DNA of 64,000 nt, from the NCBI RefSeq assembly GCF_024679245.1, contig NC_090178.1:29359955-29423954 (forward strand), written 5' to 3'. The notes under the pieces were generated by a model. It was not told where the DNA came from, did not search any database, and saw only the letters and a program-made list of their open reading frames with translations. Positions 372 to 64,000 of the stretch are shown piece by piece. A program made the position numbers and the translations under genes. This DNA is from Pseudorasbora parva. Its lineage: Eukaryota; Chordata; Actinopteri; Cypriniformes; Gobionidae. Position 1 is the first letter of the stretch. Every line of letters starts with the position of its first letter.

Positions 372-14604
<14,233 letters not shown>

Positions 14605-19049: not shown

Positions 19050-19409
19050 GCATATACTAATCGATGCTGCTCTAAGTGAGGTGGGGGCGCGATCGGGCGG
19101 GAATTTTTATTCTAAATTTAAAGTTAATTTAAATTCATACTAATGGAGTGGGAAAAAATGTTGTTGATATAAGTGCGATAATTGTAACCTACCTAATGTA
19201 AAACTAACAAATAAATTTATAAAAAAAAATTCTCTCTCTCGCTTTCGCTCTCTCGCCTTCTCTCTCTCTTGCCGCCCTGGCTGAGCTGCCGCCCTAGGCG
19301 GCTGCCTAGTTCGCCTATAGGCACGCGCCGGCCCTGGTTATTTGTTAAAGAAGACTATTTTTTTCTTGTGAAAGTTGTGGGAGTCTGCTCCCGGCGTTTG
19401 CCGGGACGC

Positions 19410-20681
19410 ATGGCTGCTTCAGGTGTTTCGGGTAGTGAAGGTTTGACTCGGCGTCATGGGATTAAGATTTTGTGTAAATGTACCGTAGAGGAATGTGCGC
19501 TAGCAGTTGGCAACGTTGTTGGTTACAACGCTATTGTTTCTGCTTCTAAAATGAATAACGCGATTGTTTTGTTTTTAAACGCGATTGAAAAAGCAAACGA
19601 GGTTGTTCAAACGGGAGTCGTAATTAACGCCGCGCTTACACCTGTTCTCCCTCTTAGTAGCCCTTCCAGAAAGATTATTTTGTCAAACGTGCCTCCTTTT
19701 GTTTCTGATGCAAGTATTGCTAAAGAATTGTCTTCCTTTGGTAAGATAGTTTCCCCCATTAGGAAAATTGCTCTTAGCTGCAAATCACCCTTGCTGAAAC
19801 ATGTAGTGTCGTTTCGGAGACAGGTTTATATGATCTTGAAGAATAATGCTGACGAACTTAATCTGTCTTTTAATGTTAAAGTTGAGGACTTTAACTATAC
19901 AGTTTATGCAACATCTGAAAGCATAATGAAATGCTTTGGTTGTGGCAAAATTGGTCATCTGATACGTGCCTGTCCTGAAAAAGTGGATGAAGATGCTACT
20001 GTACAGCCGAACTCTCAGAGTGCTCATTCTGAGGCTGTGTCTGTTACAGAGGATGTTGTGGCCTCTGATGCTGTTGAGTCAGGTTCTGGTAAAGCGGTTG
20101 CCATTAAGCCAAATAAACCCACTATGGCTGAGGTTACTGCAGGTTTGTGCTCTGGATATGATCTTATGGTTTTTGAAAAGGCTAATTTAAGCAGTGACAT
20201 CTCTGTAAATACAGATACAATGACTGCTGATAAACAGGTCAGTGAGGGTGTTGTTGATTTAGAGATGGACGTAGAGTCAATCTTCAAAGTCCCTACTAAA
20301 AGGAAGAAAGTTTGTCAGAGCAAGGTGATTAAACAAGCAAAAAAAGACAAAAATGAAGCTGAATGTTTATACTCAGAAAATGAAAGTGACTCTACGGATT
20401 CCAATACTTCTGATTGTTCCCATCTTTCATCGCAAAATGAAAATGAAAACCAGAAAACAGTATATAAAGTTGAGGAAATTAGCAAATTTTTGAAAGAAAC
20501 TAAAGGCCTACCTGGAGTTCAGGTTGAAGATTATTTCCCTGATCGCTCAACTTTCATTAATGATGCAAAAATTCTAATGAAAGAAGGTGCTTTTGTAGAT
20601 AAAGATGTTTACCGTCTCAGAAAAATTGTGAGTAAACTTAGAAAGCGAATCCTTAATGATGAAAAACAAGATATGGTGTAA
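19410..20681 (+). CDS. Tx1-LINE ORF1, zinc-knuckle nucleic-acid-binding protein
   Basis: 423 aa, intact. The start ATG (19410, MAASGVSGSEG) lies downstream of the hAT insertion. The frame stays open into hAT sequence back to 19269, but those codons come from the inserted element. An N-terminal RRM-like region (RKIILSNVPPFVSDASIAKE) precedes one CCHC knuckle, CFGCGKIGHLIRAC, at residues 175-188. A Ser/Glu-rich linker and a basic KRKKVCQSKVIKQAKK patch follow. This ORF1 build is typical of the Tx1/L1 group: it coats the element RNA. Its 3' end reaches past 20656, an upstream in-frame ATG of ORF2. Confidence 0.85.
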   Translation: MAASGVSGSEGLTRRHGIKILCKCTVEECALAVGNVVGYNAIVSASKMNNAIVLFLNAIEKANEVVQTGVVINAALTPVLPLSSPSRKIILSNVPPFVSDASIAKELSSFGKIVSPIRKIALSCKSPLLKHVVSFRRQVYMILKNNADELNLSFNVKVEDFNYTVYATSESIMKCFGCGKIGHLIRACPEKVDEDATVQPNSQSAHSEAVSVTEDVVASDAVESGSGKAVAIKPNKPTMAEVTAGLCSGYDLMVFEKANLSSDISVNTDTMTADKQVSEGVVDLEMDVESIFKVPTKRKKVCQSKVIKQAKKDKNEAECLYSENESDSTDSNTSDCSHLSSQNENENQKTVYKVEEISKFLKETKGLPGVQVEDYFPDRSTFINDAKILMKEGAFVDKDVYRLRKIVSKLRKRILNDEKQDMV

Positions 20682-20760
20682 CTTATTTTTTCTGGTAGAA
20701 GTCTTTGCCTTGCTGACTGTTTCTTTTAATTACTTCTGTTTCTTAAAACCATCATTTTCT

Positions 20761-23700
20761 ATGGGAGACTTTAAAATTGGAACTCTCAATTTAAATGGTG
20801 CCAGAGACTGTCAGAAGAGAATGTGTTTGTTTGAATTTATAAAACAAAAGCACATTGATGTTACGTTTATTCAAGAATCACATAGTGACTTAAAAAATGA
20901 GGTAGACTGGAAAAAAGAATGGGATGGGCAAATTTTTATGAGTCATATGTCTTCTAATAGTGGCGGAGTAGCTGTTTTGTTTTCAAAGAAATCACTACCA
21001 ATTTCTTGTGAAATAGAAGAAATAGTTAAAGGTCGTCTTTTAAAAGTTAAAGCTAAGTTTGAAAACACTATAATGACTTTTTTAAATGTCTATGCCCCCA
21101 CAAAAGGGGCTGAAAGATTAGTGTTTTTTGATACAATTAGTGTTGCTATGAAAGATTTAAACTCGGAAGAATTGTTGTTCCTTGGTGGAGATTTTAACTG
21201 TACTGAAAATGATCAGTTAGACAGAAATCACTTAGAGCCACATGTCGCCTCACAAAAAGCTCTTACACAACTAATAAGAGCATTTGATTTGTGTGATGTT
21301 TGGAGAAACATGCATCACAAGAATAGACAATATACCTGGGCACATAGTAGAGATAATCTTATTTCTATGGCAAGGCTGGATAGGCTTTATGTGTTTCATT
21401 TTCAAGCAAATCTGGCTAGAGATTGTAAAATAATTCCAGTTGGTTTTTCTGATCATTGTTGTGTTATTTGTAACATTTTCATTAATTCTGTGAATTTGAA
21501 GAGTGCGTATTGGCATTTTAATACATCACTTTTAAATGATAAAAAGTTTATTGACACTTTTATTTTGTTTTGGGAAAATTTTAAAGAACAAAAACTGTTT
21601 TATACTTCCTTGCAACAGTGGTGGGATTGTGGCAAGGTTCACATTAAACAACTCTGTCAAGAGTATACTTTAAATGCTACAAAAGAAATGGCCCAGTCAA
21701 TGAAAAAGTTAGAATTTGAAATAATTGAACTTTGGAGCACAACAGCTTCTACAAGTGACGGTGAATGTTTTGAAAGTAGTAAATCTAAAAAAGATTTGCT
21801 TGCAGACTTATTGGGTGTGAAAGCACAAGGGGCATTAATTCGTTCCCGTTTTCAAAGCATCTCACAAATGGATGCACCATCCAAATTTTTTTTCAATTTG
21901 GAAAAAAAAAATGGACAAAGTCGTATTATTCACTCATTAAGATCTGATACTGGGAAAGAGCTTGTTGAACCTAGTGAAATACGCAAACACGCTGTTGATT
22001 TCTACTCAAATTTATATAAATGTGAGTTGGTTCAAAGAGAAGATGAAACATTTTCTTTTCTTAATGATCTTCCAAAGATTGATGAGGAGTCTAATAATGT
22101 GCTTAAACAATCATTGTCACAAAATGAACTATATACTGCTATGATGGACATGGAAAATGGAAAGGCTCCTGGTATTGACGGGATTCCTGTTGATTTTTAT
22201 AAAATTTTATGGCCGGTGATTGGTGAAGATTTCTTTTTGGTCCTTAATGACAGTTTGAATATGGGATTGTTACCGTTAAGTTGTAGAAGAGCTGTAATAA
22301 CTCTTTTGCCTAAAAAGGGAGATCTCCAAAATATAAGTAATTGGAGACCAATATCTCTTTTATGTGCCGATTATAAAATACTATCAAAGGCTCTAGCCAC
22401 AAGGCTAAGTAAAGTTCTGAGTCAAGTAATACATTCTGATCAGAATTATTGTATACCCAATAGATCCATCTTCGATAATATATCTTTGGTCAGAGATGTA
22501 CTTGAGGTTGCAAGAATATTAGGTGTTAATTGTGGTCTAATTTCATTAGACCAGGAAAAAGCCTTCGACCGTGTAGAACATGGATATTTGAGAGATGTTT
22601 TAGAAGCTTTTGGTTTTAATCAGAGTTTTATAAATATGATAGAGGCCATGTACAGTAACATTGAGAGTATACTCAAAGTCAATGGTGGTTTGAGTGCTCC
22701 TTTTGAAGTCCAGAGGGGAGTTCGACAGGGATGTGCTATGTCAGGAATGTTATACTCCCTGGCCATTGAACCTCTGCTTCATAAATTAAGAACTGAGTTG
22801 AATGGGTTTACCATACCACATTATAATGTCTCGTTGCACCTTTCTGCTTATGCCGATGATGTAATTGTTTTTATATCTTGTGCTGATGATATTAAGAAAT
22901 TAGAGTTTATTGTTAACTGCTTTAATAAAATCTCTTCTGCAAAAGTCAACTGGGGGAAAAGTGAGGCCCTTTTAATGGGTGACTGGGATAAATGTCCTCC
23001 CAGTTTACCTGGAGGTCTAATCTGGAAGAAAGGCGGATTAAAATATCTTGGAATTTTTTTAGGAAATGATGATTTTATTCAAAAGAATTGGGATTGTATG
23101 CTGGAAAAAATAAAAGGACGTTTACAGAAATGGAAATGGCTGCTTCCCAAACTGTCTTATCGAGGCCGTACACTTATAATCAACAATCTGGTTGGGTCCT
23201 CTTTATGGCATAAACTTGCATGTGTTGATCCGCCTGTTGGACTTTTACCAAAACTTCAAGGAGAGATGGTCAACTTTTTCTGGGATAATTTGCACTGGAC
23301 ACCTCAAAGTGTTCTTTTCCTGCCAAGAGATGAAGGAGGTCAAGGCCTGGTGAATCTGGTCAGTAGAGGAGCGACTTATCGGTTGCAGTTTATTCAGCGA
23401 TTACTGACGGGACCTCAGAATCTAGTGTGGAAACCCTTGGCACAAATCATTTTGCATGAGGTGAATGGAATGGGACTCCATGATGCACTTTTCTTAATGG
23501 ATCATACTCTTCTAGATATGACCGGACTACCCTCTTTTTATAAAAGTCTTTTTAAAGCGTGGAGACTTTTTAAACATCAGTGGACAGAGTCAGCTACCTC
23601 TCTCTTTTGGTTGCTGGAGGAACCTGTGGTTTTCGGGAGTCGCCTTGATGTGTCGGGAGATGACTTTCCAGGGCTAAAAGACTTGCTTGTGTCAAAAAAA

Positions 23701-24663
23701 GTTTTGCAATTGAAAGATCTTGTGGACAAAACAGGACCTGGACTAAAGAATGCAGAAACTGTTGCCATACTTCTGGATATAAGATCAGTGAGATTTGTAA
23801 GAAAGTTTCTGAACAAACTGGATGGGGTTTTAAACTCCAAGGAAAAAACTCTCCTAGACAAATACTGCATGGGTGATATTTCCCCTGACTCTAATGACTT
23901 TTTCCCAGATATCAGAATTATACCTGATCTTGAAAAGTCTTCATATAACAGTCCATTGTTGTCTTTGAATAAAAATGAAAATGTTGATTTTTGTACAGTT
24001 AAAGGAAAGGTGATATATAAATGCATTGTGAAGGTAATTAATAAGCATACGTTAAAAGACAGAGTTGACACAGTGTGGAGAGACAAACTGGGAGTGGTAG
24101 AGGAAATGAAGCCAGAGTGGAGAGTACTATACAAACCACCATTGACTAAAAGGGCAGGTGATCTCCAATGGAGAATCCTGCAAGGTGCAATAGCCACTAA
24201 TGCTTTTGTGACAAAAATGAATCCCAATGTAAATGATATTTGTCCTTTCTGTTCAGAGAGAGAAACAATATTTCATTGTTTTATGAATTGCTTTAGACTT
24301 TCCCCACTCTTTGATCTCTTAGAATTTTTATTTTCTTTATTAGGGACTTTCTTTACAAAGCAATGTTTTATTTTTGGTTTTAAGTATAGTAGACTTCAGA
24401 AATACAAGTGTCAATTAATGAACTTCATTGTAGGACAAGCCAAACTTGCAATTTATATTTCCAGAAGAAATGAATTAGAGCAGAGAAACGGACAACATAT
24501 TGTATCTGTTTTTAAGAATATGTTTAAATCAAGAATTCTTGTTGATTTTAATTATTATAAAATGATGAATGCAATCAATGTTTTTGAGATTGAATGGTGC
24601 TGTGATGTTGGGATGTGTTCTGTGCTCAATGATGAGTTGTTTTTTATACATGAATTAAGGTAG
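20761..24663 (+). CDS. Tx1-LINE ORF2, endonuclease-reverse transcriptase
   Basis: Intact 1300-aa frame from ATG 20761. An in-frame ATG at 20656 would add 35 hydrophobic residues and overlap ORF1. Numbering from 20656: the AP endonuclease is at 40-270 with IGTLNLNGA, IQES (E74), GGDFNC and SDH (D266-H267). RT spans about 500-800 with WRPISLL, AFDR (D638), GVRQGCAMSGMLYSLAIEPL and YADD (732-735). A C-terminal CCHC-like zinc motif is at 1196-1212 (CPFC...H...C). It makes the element DNA by target-primed reverse transcription. All catalytic motifs are present, so the copy may be recent or active. Confidence 0.9.
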   Translation: MGDFKIGTLNLNGARDCQKRMCLFEFIKQKHIDVTFIQESHSDLKNEVDWKKEWDGQIFMSHMSSNSGGVAVLFSKKSLPISCEIEEIVKGRLLKVKAKFENTIMTFLNVYAPTKGAERLVFFDTISVAMKDLNSEELLFLGGDFNCTENDQLDRNHLEPHVASQKALTQLIRAFDLCDVWRNMHHKNRQYTWAHSRDNLISMARLDRLYVFHFQANLARDCKIIPVGFSDHCCVICNIFINSVNLKSAYWHFNTSLLNDKKFIDTFILFWENFKEQKLFYTSLQQWWDCGKVHIKQLCQEYTLNATKEMAQSMKKLEFEIIELWSTTASTSDGECFESSKSKKDLLADLLGVKAQGALIRSRFQSISQMDAPSKFFFNLEKKNGQSRIIHSLRSDTGKELVEPSEIRKHAVDFYSNLYKCELVQREDETFSFLNDLPKIDEESNNVLKQSLSQNELYTAMMDMENGKAPGIDGIPVDFYKILWPVIGEDFFLVLNDSLNMGLLPLSCRRAVITLLPKKGDLQNISNWRPISLLCADYKILSKALATRLSKVLSQVIHSDQNYCIPNRSIFDNISLVRDVLEVARILGVNCGLISLDQEKAFDRVEHGYLRDVLEAFGFNQSFINMIEAMYSNIESILKVNGGLSAPFEVQRGVRQGCAMSGMLYSLAIEPLLHKLRTELNGFTIPHYNVSLHLSAYADDVIVFISCADDIKKLEFIVNCFNKISSAKVNWGKSEALLMGDWDKCPPSLPGGLIWKKGGLKYLGIFLGNDDFIQKNWDCMLEKIKGRLQKWKWLLPKLSYRGRTLIINNLVGSSLWHKLACVDPPVGLLPKLQGEMVNFFWDNLHWTPQSVLFLPRDEGGQGLVNLVSRGATYRLQFIQRLLTGPQNLVWKPLAQIILHEVNGMGLHDALFLMDHTLLDMTGLPSFYKSLFKAWRLFKHQWTESATSLFWLLEEPVVFGSRLDVSGDDFPGLKDLLVSKKVLQLKDLVDKTGPGLKNAETVAILLDIRSVRFVRKFLNKLDGVLNSKEKTLLDKYCMGDISPDSNDFFPDIRIIPDLEKSSYNSPLLSLNKNENVDFCTVKGKVIYKCIVKVINKHTLKDRVDTVWRDKLGVVEEMKPEWRVLYKPPLTKRAGDLQWRILQGAIATNAFVTKMNPNVNDICPFCSERETIFHCFMNCFRLSPLFDLLEFLFSLLGTFFTKQCFIFGFKYSRLQKYKCQLMNFIVGQAKLAIYISRRNELEQRNGQHIVSVFKNMFKSRILVDFNYYKMMNAINVFEIEWCCDVGMCSVLNDELFFIHELR

Positions 24664-41797: not shown

Positions 41798-46265
<4,468 letters not shown>

Positions 46266-61134: not shown

Positions 61135-61710
61135 TTACGAAATGTAAACCATTACTACCAAAGTAAACAGAAAAGAAAGTACGTTTATCACGGTAGTTTT
61201 AGTCCCCGAGCTCCCCTTAGCCCCGCAGTCCAGCTGGTTATTACTTGGCGCTGCGTTTTCTGGGTTTCCCTCGAAATGGACCGGTTGACAGGCATCTTCT
61301 ATCTCTTCACAAGCGAGGATGATGTGTTTGGTTTCATTGCGCATGCTTCTGATCCCGCACGTGCCATCGGTGGTATCAATCCGCACTGTTACGAAGGAGA
61401 ATTTCTCTTTACTGATACACAGGTTACCTGACTTGGTCTTGCCCCCAGCTTTAGTACACACATTTTCCACCCTCTGTTTCTCGCTGGCTCGGAAAAACGA
61501 CTGCGTCGGTCTGCCGCACGTCTGAATTTTCCTCAGGAAACTTTCCCATGCGTTTTGGTCCCACGTTTTTGGCACCCCATCAGGAATATGGCGCTTGAGG
61601 AAAATACTATGAGCGTTGTTGTACTTCGCTGGCATACAAGGCTTAGAGTTTGTATCCGCTGACTGACTTTGAGGCAAAACAAATACCAAAAGTACCAAAA
61701 AGGGAATCAT
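61135..61710 (-). CDS. RNase A-superfamily-like secreted protein with GPI-anchor-like tail
   Basis: 191 aa, single coding exon. Signal peptide MIPFLVLLVFVLPQSQSA. RNase A landmarks in order: FLKRH (H41, equals His12), TC65 (Cys40), NVC85 (Cys58), NLC98 (Cys72), TC118 (Cys95), ILAC134 (Cys110) and QPVHFE (H145, equals His119). The usual CKxxNTF with catalytic Lys41 is CGRPTQSF here, so ribonuclease activity is doubtful. Cys26 and Cys84 are both absent. Extra cysteines C25, C141 and C162 resemble the rewired disulfides of frog RNases. The C-terminal 20 residues are hydrophobic after a Gly/Ser-rich stretch, as in GPI-anchored proteins. An acceptor (TTTTTTTAG) at 61720 and a donor at 61930 indicate an upstream non-coding exon, as is usual for this family. 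Confidence 0.75.
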   Translation of the reverse strand: MIPFLVLLVFVLPQSQSADTNSKPCMPAKYNNAHSIFLKRHIPDGVPKTWDQNAWESFLRKIQTCGRPTQSFFRASEKQRVENVCTKAGGKTKSGNLCISKEKFSFVTVRIDTTDGTCGIRSMRNETKHIILACEEIEDACQPVHFEGNPENAAPSNNQLDCGAKGSSGTKTTVINVLSFLFTLVVMVYIS

Positions 61711-61930
61711 TTTGAAGACCTAAAAAAAGGGGGAAAGCAGACGGGTTACTATTACGCTTCGCGGCCACGTATAGTCATTTAAAATGGCTTACGCCTCCCA
61801 TTTAAATGTATAAAAATAGCATGCGTTACAAACAGCTCTGCTGGCGACTCTGGCACGCGCGTGGTAGCCTATAGGCTATTCTTTCCCTAAAAAGCAAACG
61901 AGGTAGTTTACATTTGATGATTAGGCTTAC

Positions 61931-62060
61931 CGAAATATTGCAGACCTTCGTGTTGGTGACTACGTTTGCAAAGCCCTTCTGTCTCTTTTTTGCTTCCTCC
62001 TTTAGCTGAACGAAATAGTTATTTGTGCATTTCTCTCTTTGAGTTTCAATCTCCCAGTGT
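61931..62060 (-). other. Probable 5' non-coding exon of the RNase-like gene
   Basis: Donor CG|GTAAGCC (GT at 61930-61929) pairs with acceptor AG at 61721-61720; exon 2 starts at 61719, nine bases before the ATG. The 5' boundary is not visible; the end given is a guess. Confidence 0.45.
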
Positions 62061-63669
62061 AGCCTATGACCAAAATCCTAAATCTTGTTATGACACGTCA
62101 ACCAGCTCCTTCAGTTTTGATTGTGGGCCATAGGATGACTCATTGTCCTTTTTCCGGCAGATTATAGGCTAATTATAGTACTCTGTTACATGCATTTGGA
62201 TATCAAGGGCTCTATTATATAAATAAAACATTTACTGTAGCCTATTATTTGATCAAAATTTTGACAAAAATACGTTTTTTCTTTTATTATGATTTTAAAT
62301 TCATAACCTAAATTTGTAATGACATAAACTCATTTTAATTTAATTTAATTTAAACTCATTAAACTTTCATTTAAATGTCTATAAATTAGTATTTTCTTTG
62401 TCGTTGTGAAATCCATAGCCTATCTAAAAGAAATCCTAAATCATCATGGATGAGCAGTGTAGGAGTAAGATAACTCTTTTGGAATACTGGAGGCGGCAGT
62501 TTCAGAATTGCATTTCTAGGAAACTTTTTTTTGTTGGTATTAGCAGTTTATACTATTTTATGGCACTTACTATTCAATTCGGTATCCATTTTATTATTTT
62601 TTAATGAATGATTCAGATGTTTAAAATTGTATAAATTGAATTGATAAAGCCCTAAAGGCACAATATGTAACGTTTTTGGATTAAAATATTAAAAAAAAAA
62701 CACTAGAACAATGTTATATATATATTTAGTTGACTTGTGTGGACACAGGAAGCCATCAAAGGCAGAAGGTGCCGGAAAAACACCTCAATATAGAAAGCCA
62801 GGCTACTAGACTTGTTCTTGTCTCACAAACTGAAAATCTCTGACTGTTTTGGTCAGACAAAGGAGCCCCGAATTTAGTCAGGAATAGTATTTTAGCATTT
62901 AGTTAAAATATGATTGTTGAAAATATGATATTTTTATTTCTCATAGATGATCTTTTTATTTGTTATGCATATGTTGTGTTTATTCTATCACTATTTTAAT
63001 ACCCTTTCTATGTAAAGGACTTTGAATTACCATTGCATATGAAATGTGCTATATAAATAAACTGGCCTTGACAAGAATGTTTAAATCCAGAGAAATCCAC
63101 GTTACCCTTGATTTCCATTTTTATTTTGTAGAAAATATGGAAACATCAAAGACGCTTTAATATATGATGTCTTATTACAGCGATGAGCAACTATTTAGAC
63201 ATTCATAGACAGAAAACGAATCATTGTTATATAGCTCAACACAGTTATTCTTGTTGTTTAAATCACATACCATGTTTTACCCTGCCTAATATTGATCTAG
63301 CTTACAACAGTGTGCAACAAGTGTCTCATAGTAGCCACTGAGCAAATGCACATATAGCATAATAACAACTTTCACATTGATCAAATATGATAAAACAGAA
63401 CTGTATACGCATGACCAGATAAAGCTGACATCTGTGGCATAATAAAAGCTTCCAGGCTTTTTCAAGCTACGCCGTTGCAAAAAACAAACAAACAACATAT
63501 TTTGTTAAAACATTAACAGTGAGAAAGTTGTGAAAGTTGACATTTATTTATTCTTTCATCAACAATTTCATCAACTGACAGAAAAAGAATATAGTACTTA
63601 GTTCTTTAGCTCAGAGGTACATTACAGTCAGGAAAACACTTCCTCCTCATTAATAGACCTGAGCTTTAG
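62061..63669. other. Spacer between the two RNase-like genes
   Basis: A MITE-type end (AAAGGCACAATATGTAACG) near 62653 and a LINE/SINE-type tail (AAAGGACTTTGAATTACC, GTGCTATATAAATAAA) at about 63016-63062. AATAAA on the minus strand near 63546 probably ends the downstream paralogue transcript. Confidence 0.55.
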
Positions 63670-64000
63670 TTAACTGCAGTCTGGTTTTTTATTATTTGGT
63701 TTTATCTTTTCTGTATTTGCCTGAAAATGATCAGGGAGACATTTGTTTTTAAATTTATCACAGGCAAGAATAACATGCTGTTTCTGACGTTTGACGCTTT
63801 TGACCATTTTAGCCTTACTGTCGATGTTAACAGTTATGAAGGAAAAAGGCTTCTTGCTGATGCAGAGGTTGCCTTTATACATCTTTCCTCCTGATGAACA
63901 CACAGCTATGACACTGTTTTTTTCACCGAAGGGAAAGAATGACTGAGTCAGCCTGTCCCAGGTGCCGATTTTATTAATGAACATCTTCCAGTTCTCTTTT
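63670..64000 (-). CDS. Second RNase A-like paralogue, 3' part (runs off window)
   Basis: The frame is open from the window edge (ENWKMFINKIGTWDRLTQSF) to a stop at 63670. It is clearly paralogous to 61135-61710: LTQSFF, AVCSSGG, GNLCISKKPFSFITV, VILAC, and KCLPDHFQ holding the His119 equivalent. The Cys40 equivalent is Trp and the Cys95 equivalent is missing, so a whole disulfide partner pair is gone. It ends after NNKKPDCS, without the hydrophobic tail of its neighbour, so it would be secreted rather than GPI-anchored. The N-terminal third, including any His12, lies outside the window. Confidence 0.7.
   Translation of the reverse strand, partial: KENWKMFINKIGTWDRLTQSFFPFGEKNSVIAVCSSGGKMYKGNLCISKKPFSFITVNIDSKAKMVKSVKRQKQHVILACDKFKNKCLPDHFQANTEKIKPNNKKPDCS

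Follow-up and report, generated by a model that had tools for sequence, protein, structure and literature searches.

A tandem pair of divergent RNase A-like genes in Pseudorasbora parva belongs to a teleost family with a remodelled active site and, in one gene type, a candidate GPI signal

We analysed a stretch of 64,000 nucleotides from Pseudorasbora parva (contig NC_090178.1), referred to here as the window. Its last 3 kb hold two RNase A-like genes, both on the minus strand. Gene 1 is complete, and gene 2 runs on the minus strand from beyond the window edge at 64000, where its 5' part and N-terminus lie outside the window, to a stop at 63670. The features of the two genes are as follows.

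61135..61710, minus strand: gene 1 coding sequence, 191 amino acids in one ORF including the stop codon at 61137-61135 (ORF list and sequence)
61138..61191, minus strand: hydrophobic C-terminal tail of gene 1, residues 174-191, GPI-signal-like by hydropathy rules (helix 171-190 modelled with moderate confidence)
61207..61215, minus strand: Gly166-Ser-Ser, a candidate omega site for GPI attachment among several triplets of small residues (home-made rule, a weak criterion)
61276..61278, minus strand: His145 of gene 1, aligned with catalytic His119 within P-[VI]-H-F-E
61495..61512, minus strand: R67-P-T-Q-S-F72 of gene 1, in register with K41-P-V-N-T-F46, with Arg for Lys41 (alignment and HMMER)
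61588..61590, minus strand: His41 of gene 1, aligned with catalytic His12 of RNase A
61660..61710, minus strand: N-terminal hydrophobic signal peptide of gene 1, residues 1-17 (cleavage point by eye; helix 2-11 in the model)
61720..61930, minus strand: likely 5'-UTR intron of gene 1 (sequence motifs only)
63670..64000, minus strand: 3' part of the gene 2 coding sequence, 109 codons visible, without a hydrophobic tail (open frame, cut by the window end)
63727..63729, minus strand: His of gene 2 at the His119 position (window row; His also in 15/15 aligned relatives)
63952..63954, minus strand: Arg of gene 2 at the Lys41 position (window row; Arg also in 15/15 aligned relatives)
63958..63960, minus strand: Trp of gene 2 at the Cys40 position (window row; Trp also in 15/15 aligned relatives)

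In gene 1, the signal segment (read by eye) and the whole coding sequence lie within one unbroken ORF. A splice acceptor consensus stands nine bases ahead of the ATG, with a donor about 210 bases further upstream; the putative 5'-UTR intron would extend from a GTAAGC donor at 61930 to a polypyrimidine-AG acceptor at 61721-61720. RNase A genes usually carry a 5'-UTR intron, and, judged from these motifs, the layout of gene 1 matches the usual arrangement of such an intron and one coding exon. Passages of two published accounts likewise give RNase A family genes a single coding exon (PMC5852591, PMC3845642). The possibility that gene 1 is a pseudogene was ruled out by its open and conserved reading frame.

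The stop of gene 2 falls immediately past the last conserved cysteine, and the DNA at 63601-63672 (minus strand) retains similarity to the short hydrophilic stretch that extends the C-terminus of its relatives, which suggests, at the level of sequence, that a dispensable C-terminal end was lost recently. A tblastn search of the window (E<=1), with nine proteins of the family and a canonical salmon RNase as queries, yielded no third copy; the matches of P0033 at 22507-22767 (E 4e-4, 25% identity, within a LINE-like ORF) and of P0088 at 30426-30232 (E 0.36) were taken as chance. Elsewhere in the window, two long overlapping ORFs of 488 and 1343 amino acids at 19215-24663 (plus strand) are seemingly, by eye only, an intact LINE retrotransposon whose ORF1 carries a zinc knuckle and whose ORF2 encodes an endonuclease/reverse transcriptase, and frame-broken ORFs at 1852-2713 (plus strand) look, again by eye only, like a Tc1/mariner transposase remnant. 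A CRABP2-like exon (cellular retinoic acid-binding protein 2) at 42302-42658 on the minus strand, with a PDB phmmer E of 1.3e-25, lies about 19 kb from gene 1 and offers a synteny marker.

The earlier note had read the two genes as RNase A-like and named a search against PF00074 and a structure prediction as checks. Pfam assigned no family to either window protein at E<=1, whereas PF00074 was found at E<=0.01 in 62 of the 127 family members that were aligned and was lacking in the other 65. Phmmer searches of the PDB gave angiogenins for both window proteins (E 6.3e-4 for gene 1, where they are the best matches, and 1.9e-4 for gene 2), and the family profile reached E 2.6e-7, with 50/50 of its PDB matches at E<=0.01 being RNase A-type. 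The models of gene 1 and of a full-length gene 2 relative gave clear structure matches to the RNase A fold. Chance resemblance was ruled out by the fold and profile matches, which show the two genes to encode proteins of predicted RNase A fold that belong to a distinct teleost family. The kinship with RNase A is not new in itself, since databases already name some members "Ribonuclease A-domain", "angiogenin" or "angiogenin-like".

We next describe how the family is spread. A search with gene 1 of 5.8 billion proteins returned 195 matches at E<=1, of which 120 are listed; the closest relative among those listed is 88% identical, and the best species-named ones come from Danio (82%) and Labeo (79%). 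Sixty-seven of the 120 listed matches are species-named, all of them teleosts by our reading, spanning Clupeiformes (Denticeps among them), Ostariophysi and percomorphs. Gene 2 has 20 matches, the best-named from Leuciscus (86% identity) and Anabarilius (84%), and the seven that are species-named all belong to cyprinid-type fishes.

In a 61-row tree, the family is set off from three canonical fish RNases by a single, very long branch (support 100/100) that measures 3.82 changes per column to one side of the midpoint and 2.13 to the other, the three canonical rows being too few to test nesting. The gene-2-type rows are monophyletic (100/100); their branch measures 1.14 changes per column and lies next to the otophysan gene-1-type rows. 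On the question of a gene 2 origin by duplication within Cypriniformes, a topology test on a 48-row tree did not reject the placing together of gene-2-type and cypriniform gene-1-type rows (p-AU 0.383), the alternative having support of 50/38. In Cirrhinus molitorella, the locus tags 009829, 009831 and 009832 comprise two gene-2-type genes and one gene-1-type gene within four numbers, on contigs of identical length, which shows a tandem layout similar to that of the window. One of the gene-1-type matches, P0021 of Bagarius yarrelli, deposited as "Sister chromatid cohesion protein DCC1", is gene-1-type over its C-terminal two thirds; its gene model has probably fused two neighbouring genes; residues 1-109 of P0021 found no match to dscc1 in the window (tblastn, E<=1).

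To compare active sites, we placed the family in register with RNase A through a His12-Cys26 spacing of 14 and a Cys72-Cys84 spacing of 12 in both, with HMMER setting R-P on K-P of the ARH-II chimera; the residue numbers used here (His12, Cys26, Cys72, Cys84) are those of RNase A. Residues were counted in an alignment (A3) of 112 gene-1-type rows, the window's included, and 15 gene-2-type rows. Nine of the 120 gene-1-type matches were left out for odd length or gene model (P0015, P0021, P0030, P0041, P0079, P0088, P0095, P0117 and P0119), as were five partial ones of the 20 gene-2-type matches (P0135 and P0137-P0140); window gene 2 is absent from these counts, and its residues were taken from a separate alignment row.

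Both catalytic histidines are kept throughout, His12 in 112/112 gene-1-type and 15/15 gene-2-type rows and His119 in the same proportions, and only Lys41 is replaced, leaving the canonical His-Lys-His triad incomplete. Arg takes its place in every one of the 127 aligned rows (112/112 and 15/15). Asn44 has become Gln and Thr45 has become Ser with the same regularity (112/112 and 15/15; QSF for NTF), and Phe46 and Phe120 are invariant in the alignment. CKxxNTF is thus absent, reading C-x-R-P-T-Q-S-F in gene 1 and W-x-R-x-x-Q-S-F in the gene 2 type. These counts bear out two observations of the earlier note, that both genes keep a His119-like position and that both lack the lysine context of CKxxNTF. 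Residue 11, adjoining His12, is Arg in 111/112 gene-1-type rows, and P-[VI]-H-F-E around His119 is common to all 112, with Glu in place of Asp121. Among gene-2-type rows, position 118 is Asp in 7/15 and position 121 is variable, and the site may be weakened there.

Seven positions (H12, K41, N44, T45, F46, H119 and F120) all fall among the 31 invariant columns of 189; the hypergeometric probability is 1.7e-6 for the seven, which were picked after the alignment had been seen, and 0.004 for the triad alone, both figures ignoring the kinship of the sequences. As far as aligned residues can tell, the active site is remodelled yet preserved, frozen rather than eroded.

The disulfides have been rewired. 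The three canonical bonds, 26-84, 40-95 and 58-110, are an incomplete set in both gene types. Equivalents of Cys58 and Cys110 are present in both genes, as had been claimed, and gene 1 also keeps the cysteines of 40-95. The claimed loss of the Cys26/Cys84 pair holds as well: Cys26 is replaced by Trp and Cys84 by Arg in 112/112 gene-1-type rows, both cysteines are missing in 15/15 gene-2-type rows, and window gene 2 itself has Trp and Asn at the two positions. In addition, the gene 2 type has Trp for Cys40 (15/15) and no Cys95 (15/15), and window gene 2 likewise lacks this pair, a joint loss consistent with the known bond between 40 and 95.

Four further cysteines occur in gene 1, at residues 25, 98, 141 and 162; of these, window gene 2 shows the equivalents of the last three. 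Cys98 occupies the Cys72 position without a Cys65 partner. Both Cys98 and Cys141 are present in 112/112 gene-1-type and 15/15 gene-2-type rows, Cys25 in 109/112 (three gaps) and 15/15, and Cys162 in 110/112 and 15/15. Of the predicted structures, model 1 shows isolated strand residues at 26-27 and at 161, and model 2 shows them at 33-34 and at 165, in each case beside the first and the last of the four cysteines and with the strand partners unnamed. If residue 26 pairs with 161, then a 25-162 disulfide (32-166 in model 2) would probably staple the chain ends, and by elimination 98-141 would be the second new bond. Together the two would probably stand in for 26-84 and 65-72.

We measured the C-terminal tail of gene 1 in two ways. 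The loose measure takes the best 12-residue hydropathy window past the last His-Phe and calls a tail hydrophobic at >=1.6, which holds for 118 of the 120 gene-1-type matches listed of 195; the two exceptions, P0034 and P0117, have divergent gene-model ends. The hydrophobic tail that the earlier note saw on the complete copy is confirmed. By this measure the maximum is 0.88 among 20 gene-2-type proteins and 0.73 among six canonical salmonid RNases, a small control set, so that 0/20 and 0/6 have such a tail. P0139, which lacks the His119 region, was left out of the 0/20, its value of 2.68 reflecting an upstream stretch; with none of the 20 gene-2-type proteins that reach the His119 region bearing the tail, the description of a pair with only one tailed member also holds.

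The strict rule, likewise home-made, looks for an unbroken hydrophobic run near the C-terminus and an omega triplet upstream of it. It was passed by 101/121 gene-1-type proteins (gene 1 included), 0/21 gene-2-type proteins and 0/6 canonical RNases, compared with 230/12100 shuffled tails. Of the 20 failures, 15 go with a Pro, Asn, His, Gln or Glu within the run and five with an extended or divergent end. The omega triplet was found in all 101 passers and also in 9057/10100 sequences with the upstream letters shuffled, and so has little power. Since the hydrophobic character is kept while the letters change, the tail is probably translated and used, as these comparisons suggest.

Drawing on sequence and structure models, we lean, by a modest margin over even chances, towards an explanation in which gene 1 encodes a GPI-anchored ecto-RNase that cleaves slowly or binds RNA, and gene 2 a soluble, basic paralogue. 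The gene 1 product would be held by a GPI anchor at the outer surface of the cell, bind RNA or nucleotides there and cleave RNA slowly, with Arg41 taking over from Lys41 in stabilising the transition state, perhaps aided by the Arg adjoining His12. Gene 2 would be a tandem paralogue that lacks both the anchor and the 40-95 disulfide and is more basic; its product would be secreted, soluble and faster-evolving, and would most likely serve host defence. Two full-length gene-2-type relatives have calculated pI values of 9.71 and 9.66, compared with 8.65 for residues 18-166 of gene 1 and 8.26 for a canonical RNase of trout; the basic charge, together with the fast change and the tandem copies, suggests a role of gene-2-type proteins in host defence.

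The earlier note had gone further and proposed a fish-specific branch that became a surface protein or ligand rather than an enzyme. The restriction to fish, among the named and listed matches, and the conserved GPI-type tail agree with that proposal, but its non-enzyme part runs against the invariance of His12, Arg41, QSF and His119 in 112/112 and 15/15 aligned proteins. A catalytically dead surface ligand or receptor, whose fold is kept for protein-protein contact and displayed by the anchor in the manner of mammalian RNases 9-12, would accord with the replacement of Lys41 in every aligned row, and sections of one report describe recombinant mammalian RNases 9-12 as without RNase activity and their loss as affecting fertility and sperm small RNAs (PMC11647505). 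Yet a pure ligand has no obvious need of both catalytic histidines and an invariant R-x-x-Q-S-F, and RNases 9-13 are described as lacking catalytic residues, unlike the present family (PMC6313885, PMC11647505). We give this alternative something under one chance in three. How much activity an Arg could leave is indicated by passages of a study of human angiogenin, where K40R keeps 6.3% of the activity and is likened to K41R in RNase A, and where K40Q lowers activity at least 2000-fold (PMC5296752). The changes at Arg41, Gln44 and Glu121 combined could abolish cleavage, and the conservation could then mean RNA or nucleotide binding only; in our judgement, a weak or specialised RNase is likelier than a non-enzyme.

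The tail itself could be read as a single-pass transmembrane helix, as a hydrophobic helix is predicted at 171-190, runs of 18-20 residues occur in 10/101 strict-rule passers and the omega triplet discriminates poorly. Nevertheless, the chain usually ends inside the hydrophobic stretch or a few residues beyond it, 80/101 runs have 13-17 residues, short for a plasma-membrane span, and at least two Lys/Arg follow the hydrophobic window in only 3/118 tails. Because the runs are short and basic residues after them rare, a GPI signal is, by our home-made rules, the likeliest reading of the tail, and a transmembrane span is improbable. Still more remote is the idea that these are ordinary secreted canonical fish RNases, that is, angiogenin orthologues: database names such as "angiogenin" and "angiogenin-like" and the best PDB matches point that way, but the very long, fully supported branch from the three canonical fish RNases sets the family apart, and its cysteine pattern, motif and C-terminus all differ. 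Returning to the anchored ecto-RNase, its extension to the whole family, as teleost-wide membrane-tethered enzymes with Arg for Lys41, a GPI anchor, new disulfides, extracellular RNA as target and a soluble cationic cyprinid offshoot, is a tentative proposal to which we give slightly less than even chances.

RNase A is a textbook enzyme family of small secreted proteins, and no other member of the superfamily is known to us to be GPI-anchored. With angiogenin and the fish canonical RNases (zebrafish RNase 1 and 5, salmon SS-RNase-2), the present family shares the fold, the N-terminal signal, an intronless ORF, the His pair and Cys58-110, as well as 40-95 in gene 1; it differs from them in Arg for Lys41, QSF for NTF, the missing 26-84 pair and the additional cysteines, and the GPI-type tail of gene 1 is found in none of the six canonical salmonid RNases. 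Mammalian RNases 9-13 are likewise divergent RNase A relatives without the canonical motif; as portrayed in parts of two publications, they are secreted, lack catalytic residues and keep three disulfides (PMC6313885, PMC11647505), whereas the family here keeps both His and rewires the disulfides. The Trp of gene 2 at the Cys40 position (63958-63960, minus strand; 15/15 relatives) equals the human angiogenin variant C39W, which is tabulated in PMC5296752, with the partner cysteine here gone as well.

Zebrafish has an uncharacterised relative, LOC110437975, that is 82% identical to gene 1, and the uncharacterised gene name si:dkey-237j11.3 is borne by relatives of both types in other species; a search of the open-access literature found no paper naming either. 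Nor did the matches listed from that literature, which leaves most subscription journals outside, include a GPI-anchored RNase A protein or an account of this family. Within that open-access literature we found no description of the anchor-type tail that gene-1-type proteins conserve, of the invariant Arg41 site or of the rewired disulfides. Fish and other non-mammalian vertebrates are credited with only 3-5 RNase A genes (PMC3845642).

The zebrafish relative makes the family directly testable, and its members offer natural test cases for an Arg standing in for the catalytic Lys and for the loss and replacement of paired disulfides. If the explanation favoured here is true, a surface-anchored teleost branch would add a new mode of action to the RNase A family, namely contact-dependent handling of extracellular RNA.
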